DNA from: an uncultured Chloroflexota bacterium
Lineage (GTDB): Bacteria > Chloroflexota > Limnocylindria > Limnocylindrales > CSP1-4
DNA: 33,244 nt
Direction of reading: 5' to 3'
Assembly (NCBI GenBank): GCA_903925955.1
Contig: CAIYHO010000137.1
Coordinates: forward strand, 1 to 33,244
The notes under the pieces: model-generated
The model's database searches: none
What the model was told of the DNA's origin: nothing
The model's input: only the letters and a program-made list of their open reading frames with translations
Shown: one piece after another, positions 2,555 through 33,055 of the stretch
Position numbering within the stretch: the first letter of the stretch is position 1
Layout: every line of letters starts with the position of its first letter
Program-made: the position numbers and the translations under genes

Positions 2555-3499
2555 GTGGCAGGTCACGAGACCCGCGCGCGCCAACAGGGCCGCAGCGTTC
2601 TGGAGGTCCTTGGCGCGGCGGTGCTGTTTGGCACGACGGGCACCACAGCGTCGCTTGCGCCGGCCGCCGCAGGCTCCATCGCCATCGGCTCGGCACGCCT
2701 GGTCGTCGGCGGCGTGGGCCTGTTCGCGGCGCTGCCGCTGCTCGGGGGGAGCCGGCGTTCCGCGATAGCGCTCTGGCGCACGCGGTGGGGCCTCACCGCC
2801 GGCGTGATGACGGCTCTGTACCAGTTGGCCTTCTTTGCCGGTGTCGCGCGCGCCGGTGTCGCGCTGGCCACGCTGCTCACCATCGGGTCTGGCCCCGTCC
2901 TCGTGGGGCTCATCTCGTGGGTGCTCCTGCGCGAGCGGCCGGCGATGCTGTGGTGGGTGTCGACGGCTGTGTGCCTCGCCGGTCTGGCACTGCTGACGCT
3001 GCACGGCAGCACCGAGACCGGAGCAGACGCCAGCGGCCCACTGTTTGCGCTGGCGTCTGGCCTTGGGTACGCCATCTACACCGTGGCGGCAAAGCATCTG
3101 ATGAACCAGGGCATCCATGCGCCTGAGGTCATGGCGTCAGCATTCAGTCTGGGCGGGCTGATCTTGCTGCCTGTGCTCCTCCTTGCGGGGGCCACGTGGA
3201 TGGCGTCCGTGGAGGGGCTTGCCGTGGCGCTCTGGCTTGGGCTGGCAACCACCACCGTTGCGTACGTCCTGTTTGGCCGCGGGCTGCGGGTTCTCCCCAC
3301 CGGACCCGTGGCAACGCTGGTGCTGGCGGAACCCCTTGTGGCGACGATGCTTGGGGTGTTGCTTCTGGGTGAGCGCCTTGACGCCACCGCGTGGGCCGGT
3401 GCCGCGCTTGTGGCAGCGGGGCTTGGCCTGCAGGGCGTGGTGTCGGTGCGATCTCGCAGCGATGACGAACCCAACGTCGTGGAGGCCGTCCTGGCCTGA
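2555..3499 (+). CDS. EamA/DMT-family transporter
   Basis: This 314-residue protein has about ten hydrophobic helices in two EamA halves, as expected for the drug/metabolite transporter superfamily. Typical pieces are LTIGSGPVLVGLISWVLLRE in the first half and ATLVLAEPLVATMLGVLLLG with GERLDATAWAGAALV in the second; the PVLVGLISW/EPLVATMLG pair marks the internal duplication. The GTG start at 2555 directly follows the TAG of the preceding gene, so translation is probably coupled. The substrate cannot be told from sequence; amino-acid or metabolite export is common in the family. Three EamA proteins occur in this window (also at 26123 and 28391) and they are not near-identical copies. Confidence 0.88.
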   Translation: MAGHETRARQQGRSVLEVLGAAVLFGTTGTTASLAPAAAGSIAIGSARLVVGGVGLFAALPLLGGSRRSAIALWRTRWGLTAGVMTALYQLAFFAGVARAGVALATLLTIGSGPVLVGLISWVLLRERPAMLWWVSTAVCLAGLALLTLHGSTETGADASGPLFALASGLGYAIYTVAAKHLMNQGIHAPEVMASAFSLGGLILLPVLLLAGATWMASVEGLAVALWLGLATTTVAYVLFGRGLRVLPTGPVATLVLAEPLVATMLGVLLLGERLDATAWAGAALVAAGLGLQGVVSVRSRSDDEPNVVEAVLA

Positions 3500-3510
3500 T
3501 GGCGCGAAAT

Positions 3511-3559
3511 GGCGCGTGGCGGCTGGGCGGGTGGCGGCGCGTGGCGGCTGGGCAGGTGG
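3511..3559. repeat. 24-bp tandem duplication
   Basis: GGCGCGTGGCGGCTGGGC plus GGGTGG (3511-3534) is repeated at 3536-3559 with one mismatch (GGG to AGG), at a period of 25 bp. It lies just after the EamA stop codon at the left edge of the repeat-filled convergent gap. Confidence 0.8.
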
Positions 3560-3562
3560 TCA

Positions 3563-3748
3563 GTTCATCACCGCTCGTGATAAACGCCCGCATGTTGCGG
3601 TGACCTGAGCGCCAGCAGCCTCCTTCCGTGCCCGGTGATCACATGTGGTGATATTCGGGCCGTCATTCGGGCTCGCGTGCGCCGCGGCGAGCTGCCGATG
3701 TCGCCGCCGAGCCAATCCCGTGGCCGATTATCACGAGCGGTGATGAAC
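3563..3748. repeat. Type A palindrome cluster, copy 1
   Basis: Three palindromes lie in this convergent gap. The outer two (3563-3583 and 3728-3748) are perfect 21-bp inverted copies of each other with the core ATCACCGCTCGTGAT. The middle one (3638-3652) is ATCACATGTGGTGAT. The 186-bp unit therefore looks like a small element with terminal inverted repeats. No target-site duplication is apparent and there is no ORF inside. The same arrangement recurs at 9175-9376. Confidence 0.75.
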
Positions 3749-3840
3749 CGGATCGAACCGAACCGGATCGAACCGAACCGGACCGAACCGAACCGAACCG
3801 GATCGGACCGAACCGAACCGGATCGGACCGGCCCGGACCG
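3746..3840. repeat. Pentanucleotide array, 19 units
   Basis: Nineteen consecutive 5-bp units fill 95 bp: ten AACCG, four GATCG, four GACCG and one GCCCG. Every unit ends in CG. The left end overlaps the right terminal repeat of the type A cluster, and the right end stops two bases before the stop codon of the minus-strand oxidase. A 15-bp higher-order period (GATCG-AACCG-AACCG) is visible at the left. A 5-bp period is not compatible with a repeated peptide unit, so I read it as non-coding. Confidence 0.92.
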
Positions 3841-3842
3841 CG

Positions 3843-5036
3843 TCAGCTCCAGAGCGGCCCGTACGGGTGCTCGCCGTCGAGGCGTCGCCCTTCGACGACG
3901 CGCGCAAACGAGAACGGCGTGATGTCCACGGTGATGGGGCGGCCGTCGAGGATCCACTCGGCCATTGACGCCCCGATGGCGGGCGCCGTCTTGAAGCCCG
4001 TCCCAGAGAAGCCGCACGCCAGCCACAGACCGTCCGGACCCGGTACACCCACGGGCCCCAGGATCGCGCGCTGATCGGGCGTGATGCCGTCCTGGCCGCC
4101 GTGCGATGTGCGGACGTCGCCCAGCGTCATCCACGGGACGCGGCGGCAGAGCCGCTCCACCGCCACCTCCACAAAGCCCGGGTCGCCCACGTCCACCGGC
4201 AGGTCCGGCGAGCCGCCAAGCACGTTGTGCGTCTCCAGGCCCACAAGCAGCAGGTCGCGCCCCTCCGGCCGGAAGTACACGGCACCTGGCCGGTCCAGCA
4301 CCACGGGGATAGATGAGGGGTGCGTCAGCGGCAGACCGAAGTACGCCGTGTCGTGACGCCACGGTTCAACGGGGACTGCCACGCCCGCTGTTGCCGCAAG
4401 TACGGCAGACCAAGCGCCCGCCGCCACGACCACCACCGGCGCGGCGATATCGCCGGCGTCTGTCGCAAGCCCCGTGACGCACCCGCCAGCCGTCCGGATG
4501 GCAGTGGCCCGGACGCCGGCGGACAGCGTCGCGCCAAGATGCACAGCCGCCGCGATGAACCCGGCCGCCGTCCCCGACGGATCCGCGTAGCCCGACAGCG
4601 GCTCGTACGCCCCGCACACGATCCCGTCGAGCACGATCCCCGGCACCAGTTGGGCGATCTCGGCCGGCGACACCACGCCAGTGCGGATCCCAAGCGCCAC
4701 CTGCGCGTGGACGTTGGCGCGCAAAGCGGCCGCGTCATGCACATCGGCCAGCTGCAAGAAGCCCGTCTGGACAAAGCCCGGATCGCCCGCGCCCACGTGC
4801 TCGCCCCAGGACGTGAAGTACGGGAACGAGGCCCACGCAAGCGCCGACTCAACCGCGAGGTCGTAGTGCATGCGTACAAACCCGGACGACCGGCCTGTGG
4901 CGCCCGCGGCAATCGCCGAGCGCTCAACAACGGCCACCCGGACACCGCGCTTGGCCAAGTGAAACGTCAGCGAGGCGCCCTGGACGCCAGCGCCCACGAC
5001 AACGACGTCGGCCGTGGCGGGGACGCTTGTCCTCAC
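3843..5036 (-). CDS. FAD-dependent oxidoreductase, DAO (sarcosine/D-amino-acid oxidase-like) family
   Basis: This 397-residue flavoenzyme has the N-terminal Rossmann motif [13 protein letters not shown] (GxGxxG) and the second dinucleotide element [17 protein letters not shown], as in glycine, sarcosine and D-amino-acid oxidases. The C-terminal FAD contact [16 protein letters not shown] is also typical. Where monomeric sarcosine oxidase has a flavin-linked Cys before the TPD motif, this protein reads GQDGITPD, so covalent flavin attachment of that type is not expected. No signal peptide is seen and it is probably cytoplasmic. The GTG start overlaps the TGA of the upstream adenosine deaminase gene by 4 bp (GTGA), which indicates translational coupling. 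The substrate is probably a secondary amine or amino acid and is unresolved. A pentanucleotide array lies immediately 3'. Confidence 0.85.
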
Positions 5037-9174: not shown

Positions 9175-9376
9175 CATCACCGCTCGTGATAATTGGCAAC
9201 TGTTTCGAGGGCGCAGCCGGCCGCGGACGGGGCTACAGGCCGCAATGAGCGCGTTGTGGCGCCGGATATCACCGCTTGTGGTCGCGTGGCGCACGCGGGA
9301 CGGCGCACGGACGCGTCGCGGGGCACAGCGCCGGCCGGAGTCCATAGATGCGGCGGATTATCACGAGCGGTGATGA
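9175..9376. repeat. Type A palindrome cluster, copy 2
   Basis: Three palindromes occur upstream of argH and downstream of galT: 9175-9192 (CATCACCGCTCGTGATAA), a degenerate middle copy at 9268-9282 (ATCACCGCTTGTGGT), and the reversed copy at 9358-9376. The outer two match over 18 bp as inverted repeats, and centre-to-centre spacings are about 91 and 92 bp. The 22 bp at 9356-9377 are identical to 3726-3747 in cluster 1. With the hairpin below, this accounts for the gap 9098-9447, which has no gene. Confidence 0.75.
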
Positions 9377-27059: not shown

Positions 27060-27213
27060 GCGGCTCACCCGGTGAGTCATGGCGCGCACGCGAACGCAGT
27101 TTGGCTCACCCCGTGGGTCAGGGGAGGCTGGACGGGCTCCCGGGACCCCTCGCCGGGGCGCAGATGACCCACCCGGTGAGCTCCTGCGCCGGAAGACTCA
27201 CCCGGTGAGCCGC
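27060..27213. repeat. Type B palindrome cluster, copy 1
   Basis: Four copies of a CTCACCCGGTGAG-like palindrome lie at 27062-27080, 27103-27120, 27164-27183 and 27195-27211. The first two point one way and the last two the other. The outer pair match 18/19 as terminal inverted repeats (GCGGCTCACCCGGTGAGTC). The unit is homologous in inverted orientation to 29334-29484, including 30 identical bases at 27060-27089. Confidence 0.8.
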
Positions 27214-27248
27214 GAGGCCAGCTGCTACAGCCGAGGCGCAAGCGGTGG

Positions 27249-27293: not shown

Positions 27294-28298
27294 TCAGCCG
27301 AAGCGGGCGCGCAGGCGCGGCAGAATCAGTTCGCCGTAACGCTTGATCGCGGTCTCCTGGTCCTTGCCCGGGAAGTGGAAGACCAGGTGGTTGAACCCGT
27401 ATGCGAGATACGGCGCAATCTGCTCGATGTGCTCGTCCGGGTCTGCGGACACAAGCCAGCGGCGGTGTGCCACAGGCTCGGCCAGCTTTGCGGCCTCTTC
27501 CATCTCAAGCGCGTCGTGGATGCCCATCTTCTGCTCGCCGGTGAGCGCGAGGGCCGCCCAGATCTTCGTGTCCTCCATCGCCTGCGCGTGGTCGGTGTCG
27601 AAGGAGACCTTCATCTCGATCATCTTGTCGATGCCGGCCGCGTCGCGGCCAGCCTTCTCAGCACCCTCGACCAGCCCGGGCAGCAGGGTGTCCACGTAGA
27701 GCTCGGCGCCCTTGCCGCTGGTGCAGATGAAGCCGTCCGCGATCCGCCCGGCAAGTCTTGCCGCTGCGGGCCCGGACGCGGCGATGTAGACCGGGACGGG
27801 CTCCTCGGGGCGGTCGTAGATGGTGGCGTTGGCGGTGCGGTAGTAGTCGCCCTCAATGGTGAGCCGCTCGCCGCGCCAGAGCTGCTGGATGAGGCTCACG
27901 GACTCCCTAAGGCGCGCGAAGCGCTCAGCCTGCTCAGGCCACGCGACGCCAACCGGGACCTCGTTGAGGCTCTCACCGGTGCCCACGCCCAGGATCACGC
28001 GACCGGGCGCAAGGCAGCCCAGCGTGGCAAACGCCTGCGCCACGATGGCCGGGTTGTAGCGGAACGACGGGGTCAGGACGCTGGTGCCCAGCACGACGCG
28101 CTTGGTGGCCTGCGATGCCGCGCCAAGCCAGACGAGCGCGTTGGGGGCGTGGCCGTCCGTGTGGCGCCAAGGCTGGAAGTGGTCGCTGGTCCAAACGGAG
28201 TCGAAGCCCGCGTCCTCTGCCGCCACCGCAAGGTTCAGCAGACGCTGCGGCGGGAACTGCTCAGCGGAGGCCTTGTAGCCAAGTTTTAGGGCGGGCAT
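27294..28298 (-). CDS. fgd: F420-dependent glucose-6-phosphate dehydrogenase
   Basis: This 334-residue luciferase-like (LLM) TIM-barrel enzyme oxidises glucose-6-phosphate and reduces coenzyme F420. The start LKLGYKASAEQF and TSDHFQPWRH closely match mycobacterial FGD1. Asp39, His40, Trp44 and Glu109 fall at the same numbers as the catalytic/F420 residues I recall for FGD1. The phosphate-binding set Lys198, Lys259 and Arg283 corresponds to Lys196, Lys257 and Arg280 here, allowing for small gaps. FICTSGKGAELY and LTGEQK are preserved. AAGGAG lies 5 nt before the ATG. Keeping the phosphate site argues for a sugar-phosphate substrate rather than a generic F420 oxidoreductase. No F420-biosynthesis gene is in the window. 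Confidence 0.88.
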   Translation of the reverse strand: MPALKLGYKASAEQFPPQRLLNLAVAAEDAGFDSVWTSDHFQPWRHTDGHAPNALVWLGAASQATKRVVLGTSVLTPSFRYNPAIVAQAFATLGCLAPGRVILGVGTGESLNEVPVGVAWPEQAERFARLRESVSLIQQLWRGERLTIEGDYYRTANATIYDRPEEPVPVYIAASGPAAARLAGRIADGFICTSGKGAELYVDTLLPGLVEGAEKAGRDAAGIDKMIEMKVSFDTDHAQAMEDTKIWAALALTGEQKMGIHDALEMEEAAKLAEPVAHRRWLVSADPDEHIEQIAPYLAYGFNHLVFHFPGKDQETAIKRYGELILPRLRARFG

Positions 28299-28390
28299 CG
28301 GGGCTCCTTGCGGGATCTTGAGGGGTCTCGGGCCATGTCCGGCTGCGTGGGCCCGTGTCGGGGCCGTGTCGGGGCGGCCGATTATCGCAC

Positions 28391-29284
28391 TCAGCCCCCG
28401 ATCGCGAGCAGCAAAACCCCCGCGAGCACCATGAGGGACCCTGCCAATCGCAGACCGATCTCACGCCGTCCAACCGCCTCGCCCAGCCGGATCACACCCC
28501 ATGTGGACGTCAGCAGCATGGCCGATTCCCGCAGCGGACTCACGACTGCAAGCGGCGTGACCGAGAGCGCGGCAAGCATAAGGAGGTAGGCGCCCACGGT
28601 CAGGAGCCCACCCGCGATCGCCCGCCTGAGGTCCAGCGCCGTTGCCGTAGGCGCAAACGCTCCGCCTGCAACCCTCGGCCGCAGCCAGTTCACGCCCAGC
28701 AGGCCGGCCGCACAGACAGGCCACAAGACCGCCGCATAGAGCCACGGCTCAGTCAGGCGGACGCCGATCCGGTCGATGGTGGAGTACATGGCGATGGTCA
28801 GGCCAGTGAGGAGCGCGAAACCCGCCGCCGACCGTGACGCCGCATGGCTGCCCCGCAGGAGCCGCCAGGGTCGCTGGACGGTGAGGAGTCCGGCGAGCAG
28901 CAGCGCAACACCCGCGGCTGCCAGCGGCGCGAGACGCTCCCCCAGCAGGAGCACGCCAACGGCCACCAGCAGGAGGGGCGCACTCCCGCGGGCGAGCGGG
29001 GCCACCACCGAGAGGTCCCCGCGTCGGTACGCGGCCGCGAGGAAGATGAAATAGGCAATCTCGACGCAGCCCGAGACGAAGCCCAGCAGCAGCGCCTCCG
29101 TCGGCACAGGCGGGGCGCCAGTGATCACCCATGCCACAAGGGCGCCCGGCACCAGCACTGCGGACGCAGCCACCATGCCAACGGTCGCCGTGCGCAGCGG
29201 GTCGCCGGCACCCTTGAGCAGGATGTTCCAGCTGGCGTGGAGGACCGCCGACACGGCGATGAACGCGAGGGCGAGAGGGCTCAC
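28391..29284 (-). CDS. EamA/DMT-family transporter
   Basis: This 297-residue membrane protein has about ten hydrophobic helices and two EamA-like halves. SAVLHASWNILLKGAGDPL in helix 1 and PLARGSAPLLLVAVGVLLLG with GERLAP in the first half are typical; the second half has PLRESAMLLTSTWGVIRLGE. The GTG start at 29284 fits the conserved N-terminus. It lies upstream of fgd on the same strand with a 92-bp gap, so co-transcription is possible. It resembles DMT proteins with a His-Trp-Asn motif in helix 1. The substrate is unknown. Confidence 0.88.
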   Translation of the reverse strand: MSPLALAFIAVSAVLHASWNILLKGAGDPLRTATVGMVAASAVLVPGALVAWVITGAPPVPTEALLLGFVSGCVEIAYFIFLAAAYRRGDLSVVAPLARGSAPLLLVAVGVLLLGERLAPLAAAGVALLLAGLLTVQRPWRLLRGSHAASRSAAGFALLTGLTIAMYSTIDRIGVRLTEPWLYAAVLWPVCAAGLLGVNWLRPRVAGGAFAPTATALDLRRAIAGGLLTVGAYLLMLAALSVTPLAVVSPLRESAMLLTSTWGVIRLGEAVGRREIGLRLAGSLMVLAGVLLLAIGG

Positions 29285-29333: not shown

Positions 29334-29484
29334 GACTCACCGGGCGGGTCATCGCGCGCAGATGCTCACCGGGTGGGTCATCCAGGGCTCGGCTGACCGC
29401 GGACTGGCACTCTCCAGCACGGCCTGCCCCACCAGGTGAGCAACTCGTGCTCGTGTGCGCGCCATGACTCACCGGGTGAGCCGC
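29334..29484. repeat. Type B palindrome cluster, copy 2 (inverted)
   Basis: Four palindromes at 29333-29352, 29364-29381, about 29428-29441 and 29464-29482 repeat the 27060-27213 pattern in reverse. Centre spacings are about 30, 63 and 38 bp, against 41, 62 and 30 in the other cluster. Bases 29455-29484 are the exact reverse complement of 27060-27089. No gene is present in the gap 29285-29524. Confidence 0.8.
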
Positions 29485-32887: not shown

Positions 32888-33009
32888 CCGTAATACTCAC
32901 CGGGGTGGTGTTAACGGGTGTGCGGAGGCGCTTGACGCCCTCGGCGTGCGTGAAACGCGGTCTGGCGAGCCCGCGATGGGCCGTAGCACTCACGCGGGTG
33001 GTATTACGG
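32888..33009. repeat. Type C palindrome pair
   Basis: Two related imperfect palindromes bound a 122-bp stretch: CCGTAATACTCACC... at 32888-32917 and CCGTAGCACTCACG... at 32981-33009. The outermost 9 bases, CCGTAATAC and GTATTACGG, are perfect inverted repeats. It occupies the gap between the tetR promoter and the downstream gene's 3' end, with no ORF of its own. The layout matches types A, B and E. Confidence 0.65.
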
Positions 33010-33055
33010 AATTGCGGCACGCCCCAACGTCAGGCCCCGAGCCTAGACCCCGCGG

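Follow-up and report, generated by a model that had tools for sequence, protein, structure and literature searches.

The pentanucleotide tandem array at positions 3746-3840 of the window (the whole stretch of 33,244 nucleotides of uncultured Chloroflexota DNA that was analysed) is probably a private, imperfect microsatellite, which arose after the split from the nearest sequenced relatives in the tolerant spacer behind the stop codons of two convergent genes. In all likelihood the array serves no dedicated function. This reading is carried by the structure of the array, its uniqueness in the genome, its absence at the two nearest orthologous loci and its membership of a class of tandem arrays that flank stop codons. 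The features of the locus, together with a second copy of the neighbouring palindromic element, are:

2555..3499, plus strand: EamA/DMT transporter gene, convergent with the oxidase gene (gene calls and Pfam)
3511..3559, unstranded: second post-stop array, unrelated to the pentamers, about two copies of a 25-bp unit, 11 nt past the stop codon of the DMT gene
3567..3744, unstranded: type A element, adjoining the array and not part of it; inverted ATCACGAGCGGTGAT palindromes on the outside (3567 and 3730) and a degenerate one in the middle (3638)
3746..3840, unstranded: pentamer array of RNYCG type, with AACCG x10, GATCG x4, GACCG x4 and GCCCG x1 (unit parse and TRF)
3746..3775, unstranded: within the array, two perfect copies of the 15-bp unit AACCG GATCG AACCG (unit list and TRF period-15 row)
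3791..3830, unstranded: within the array, two perfect head-to-tail copies of the 20-bp unit AACCG AACCG GATCG GACCG (unit list and TRF period-20 row)
3843..5036, minus strand: FAD-dependent oxidoreductase gene of the DAO family (the oxidase; Pfam PF01266, E 4.6e-54), stop codon 3843-3845, 2 nt from the array
9176-9374: second type A copy in the window; more copies occur in genomes G000, G007 and G008

A unit-by-unit parse divides the array into 19 contiguous 5-bp units without any indel. Written with A for AACCG, T for GATCG, G for GACCG and C for GCCCG, their order is A T A A T A A G A A A T G A A T G C G. The longest run of identical units is three (AACCG), and repetition at a higher level proceeds in steps of 15 bp (A T A) and 20 bp (A A T G). 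TRF returned periods of 5, 10, 15 and 20 with a top score of 119. The period-5 self-match was 71/90 over 95 bp; the runner-up place in the window reached 42, and the best of 40 first-order Markov simulations of the window gave 46. With 19 units and a self-match of 71/90 against at most 46 in simulation, the array is a microsatellite or short tandem repeat (STR) in the usual sense of head-to-tail units of 1-6 bp above chance. The sequence-only reading that was followed up here had described nineteen 5-bp units of these four types, and the array's existence and coordinates proved to be exact and far above chance. Its 5′ edge lies 1 nt past the type A palindrome ATCACGAGCGGTGAT at 3730-3744, and its other edge falls 2 nt (CG) short of the oxidase stop codon on the minus strand. 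The placement between converging gene 3′ ends was described correctly, as the transporter stops at 3499 on the plus strand and the oxidase at 3843 on the minus strand. It had also been remarked that two units equal about one helical turn. The arithmetic is right, but no motif repeats on one face of the DNA, because the unit types do not alternate. A promoter scan found no promoter-like site in 3400-3950, no terminator-like site with a T run was found in the same interval (0 sites), and Rfam gave no match at the gathering score across the window. At the start of the window, a perfect 59-bp direct repeat (1-59 and 215-273, 214 bp apart) lies upstream of a gene at 308-1630 that resembles a histidine kinase by eye.

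Comparison with orthologous loci bears on the age of the array. The oxidases of two genomes of the same genus, G007 and G008, are 88% identical to that of the window. In G007, the gene order is the same (adenosine deaminase, oxidase, transporter), and the spacer between oxidase and transporter is 77 bp compared with 343 bp in the window, with neither the type A element nor the pentamers. A 9-bp array unrelated to the pentamers begins there at the stop codon of the orthologous oxidase. The orthologous locus of G008 has kept the type A element, and the pentamers are missing. Since both close orthologous loci are without it, the array would most simply be a gain in this lineage. The expected evolutionary lability was thus borne out at the level of comparison between species. 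Among 20 homologous loci, two (G000 and G007) reach a tandem score of at least 12 in the first 60 nt past the stop codon, and their units are unrelated. The G008 locus has two further peculiarities: a reading frame that is cupin-like by eye lies between the oxidase and the type A element, and the transporter (L059, G008:C41, 241-387) is shortened, its start region joining its end region as if it had been internally deleted.

The array occurs only once in its genome. A pattern search gave 25 matching places, 16 of which are the array itself, and the remaining nine (with two to three mismatches) did not exceed the 15 matches of a reversed-pattern control; the search for other pentamer arrays thus returned this one alone. 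The motif is also uncommon outside the genome, as had been supposed. Arrays of at least five RAYCG units with at most one mismatch occur in 3 of 107 genomes of the family (its own genome, G003 and G033), and at least eight exact units were found in 93 stretches, scattered over phyla, in a collection of 84,980 species from which the window's own genome may be missing. Most arrays among the 80 of these 93 loci that were tabulated have homogeneous units. By rough gene calls on the 93 stretches, 80 arrays are intergenic and 14 lie within genes. The stop preference of the motif across bacteria is weak, since the gene end nearest to the intergenic arrays is a stop in 43 cases and a start in 37; for those at most 60 nt from a gene end, the counts are 18 and 9, respectively.

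A sample of 427,962 bases (about 428 kb) of the array's own genome was annotated with a home-made gene caller based on codon usage, and tandem matching was scored in the 60 nt beside every gene end that has a gap of at least 60 nt. Arrays within these 60 nt were present at 18/143 stop flanks and at 4/181 start flanks (p=0.00025), and without the present array the stop-flank count is 17/142 (p=0.0005). Shuffled sequences gave 1/715 (mononucleotide) and 6/1430 (dinucleotide). The arrays behind the stop codons have units of 5-25 bp and show no kinship with one another. When stop-side gaps of at least 180 nt were divided by distance, arrays were present in 14/72 at 0-60 nt, 5/72 at 60-120 nt and 1/72 at 120-180 nt (first bin against the remaining bins, p=0.0007). 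Given this enrichment, the array belongs to a class that is common beside stop codons in this genome. The strength of the class is uneven elsewhere. Arrays were found at 7/85 stop flanks compared with 1/95 start flanks in G003, at 5/41 compared with 1/59 in G057, and at 6/51 compared with 1/59 in 14 pooled Streptomyces loci in which the arrays searched for had been masked. The enrichment is not universal, as the corresponding counts were 1/81 and 0/97 in G005, 4/56 and 4/86 in G015, and 1/22 and 0/30 in G059. In G003, a short pentamer array with this motif is likewise close to a stop codon, at a distance of 12 nt. The genome-wide birth of unrelated post-stop arrays would account for the array being private to its lineage.

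A plausible history begins with a short CGRAY-like seed beside the stop codon. The seed may have been multiplied by replication slippage or tandem duplication, a process suggested by the block structure, which is itself observed. Single units would have been multiplied first and the blocks of 15 and 20 bp later. The genome-wide counts suggest that the array survives because sequence directly behind a stop codon can take up insertions and holds no promoter, and the folding of its transcripts would be a by-product of the quasi-palindromic CG-RNY unit. The concentration of arrays at 0-60 nt, which exceeds the prediction from a plain lack of constraint, is a caveat to this reading of tolerance. 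A bolder proposal takes the first 60 nt past stop codons in this lineage as a genuine hot spot where tandem arrays are born rather than a place of mere tolerance, for example because RNA polymerase pauses, terminates or meets replication there. The pentamer array would then be the strongest-folding product of the hot spot, perhaps kept as a hairpin terminator without a U-tract between the convergent genes. Taken as a whole, this proposal seems unlikely.

The adjoining type A element is judged to be more interesting than the array. Copies consist of three ATCACGAGCGGTGAT palindromes with divergent spacer sequences, and the distances between palindromes (60, 71-72, 82, 92, 101-104 and 113-114 bp) follow a period of about 10.5-10.7 bp. 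R is 0.97 when all 58 spacings are counted and 0.89 when each of the 11 distinct values is counted once, although the spacings are not fully independent, as copies may share descent. The set comprises 29 hand-listed triplets (17 from G000, nine from G007 and three from G008) and omits pairs with no recognised middle palindrome, truncated copies and the copy of the window, whose middle is degenerate. The window copy, with palindromes at 3567, 3638 and 3730, has spacings of 71 and 92; its counterpart in G008 (429, 521, 634) has spacings of 92 and 113, each spacer differing by 21 bp. Of 37 genomes sampled, G000 (57), G007 (32) and G008 (16) are the only ones with more than two type A cores. This pattern of spacing and occurrence suggests that type A is a helically phased, putatively protein-binding element that has spread in a clade of three species. 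Palindromes of other kinds are also present in the window. Clustered CTCACCGGGTGAG-type palindromes of another family (27060-27214 and 29336-29484) flank the gene pair at 27294-29284 and are partly long inverted repeats, 97% complementary over 34 nt, and a third type, GTAATACTCACCGGGGTGGTGTTAAC with a related inverted copy, occupies 32889-33016 in the intergenic DNA past 32802.

The alternative that comes nearest to the evidence is a role of the array in RNA. A long hairpin of CCGR/YCGG pairs would form in oxidase transcripts and, from the opposite strand, in those of the transporter. Where the two genes converge, it would end the mRNA or shield it, acting as a terminator with no U-tract or as a barrier to decay. 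An effect on mRNA 3′ ends had been suggested, and the part of the suggestion that stands is that the RNA can fold strongly. For 100 nt of array RNA, the minimum free energy is -58.1 kcal/mol on the minus strand and -46.9 kcal/mol on the plus strand, with z-scores against dinucleotide shuffles of -3.6 and -4.0, respectively. Both strands fold strongly because RNYCG units are palindromic except for the central base. Of the two components of an intrinsic terminator, the array thus has the stable GC-rich hairpin and lacks the U-tract (0 sites in 3400-3950). U-tract terminators are apparently seldom used near stop codons in this genome, as TTTT was absent within 60 nt of all 143 stop codons in the sample, which favours a terminator of another type. 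Simulated substitution starting from an AACCG ancestor never reached the observed energy on either strand (0/500). However, the outcome of this test depends on the ancestor assumed, since arrays derived from GACCG by random substitution folded as well as the observed one in 248/500 (plus) and 23/500 (minus) cases, and few of the unit changes would be independent if variants were inherited via block duplication. Nor is the order of units significant, as permutations folded equally well in 45/500 (plus) and 108/500 (minus) cases. Taken as a class, the post-stop arrays show no better folding than the rest of the post-stop DNA (mean z of -0.43, n=18, compared with -0.89, n=125), and the structure is missing from the orthologous spacers, which are not unusually folded (z of -0.01 in G007 and +1.0 in G008). 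The pentamer array is the strongest folder among the 18 post-stop arrays (z of -4.3 for the first 60 nt), so that selection for a hairpin is conceivable. A hairpin function may exist but need not be invoked, and the reading in which the array acts in RNA is quite improbable.

Two further proposals of the sequence-only reading fared worse. Contingency repeats of Neisseria and Haemophilus, with units of four or five nucleotides, are near-perfect tracts in coding or promoter DNA. The array shares with them short units that are prone to slippage, and a contingency-type locus, at which a change in unit number alters the expression of a neighbouring gene, would agree with 5-base units being a common slippage substrate, with the absence of the array in relatives and with the 15- and 20-bp blocks, which suggest changes of several units at once. 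However, the array differs from those repeats in lying after a stop codon and in its mixed units. It is located between gene 3′ ends, outside coding sequence and away from any promoter-like site found, its neighbours are an oxidase and a transporter, and four mixed unit types with no identical run longer than three should reduce slippage. The length-variable switch is therefore very improbable, and a phase-variable locus proper, with its tract in coding or promoter DNA and a long uninterrupted run of identical units, was considered and rejected. A protein-binding, iteron-like tract that cooperates with the type A palindromes could draw on the helically quantised spacing of the adjoining element and on the length of two units, about one helical turn. 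Against it, the array is not conserved, it has no alternation of unit types, none of the other type A copies has pentamers (one array for 39 type A end repeats) and the type A element at the orthologous G008 locus is without them; the last two observations also led to the rejection of the array as a component of type A. Beside type A ends, tandem arrays of any kind were present in 9/34 cases, compared with 18/143 stop flanks (p=0.06), two sets that overlap. The binding tract is just as improbable as the switch. An artefact of assembly or binning is the least credible of all. The genome is a draft of 308 contigs, which suggests that it was probably assembled from a metagenome, with a completeness of 92.5% and a contamination of 2.14%; yet both flanking genes are syntenic with G007, and an inflated read repeat is unlikely for an imperfect array of 95 bp with mixed units.

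As a private microsatellite, the array resembles the intergenic STRs of bacteria (microsatellites, VNTR) in its head-to-tail units of at most 6 bp, its intergenic site, its privacy to a lineage and its block-wise expansion. Compared with a typical STR or VNTR it is imperfect and of mixed units, and the likeness to VNTR is one of structure; in the comparison between species, with one genome for each, the array is either present or absent. A survey of 117,861 genomes (PMC12699852) reports that bacterial and archaeal STRs favour positions downstream of transcription end sites, a placement shared by the array; it calls this effect weak in bacteria and ties pentanucleotide STRs to indels. The tandem repeats of Borgs (PMC9879509) are likewise recently formed, of independent origins and different between relatives at one locus, and some start at or within gene ends. 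Those repeats are described as perfect and enriched in A, whereas the array is GC-rich, imperfect and on a bacterial contig.

Taken alone, the array is probably a private microsatellite of an ordinary kind. In the part of the genome that was sampled, roughly every eighth stop-codon flank has its own unrelated tandem array, most densely in the first 60 nt, and this frequency is a caution against assigning a function to any one such array. It also raises the question of whether the ends of transcription are a mutational hot spot or merely tolerant. If the hot spot were real, transcription termination would be linked to tandem duplication in bacteria.
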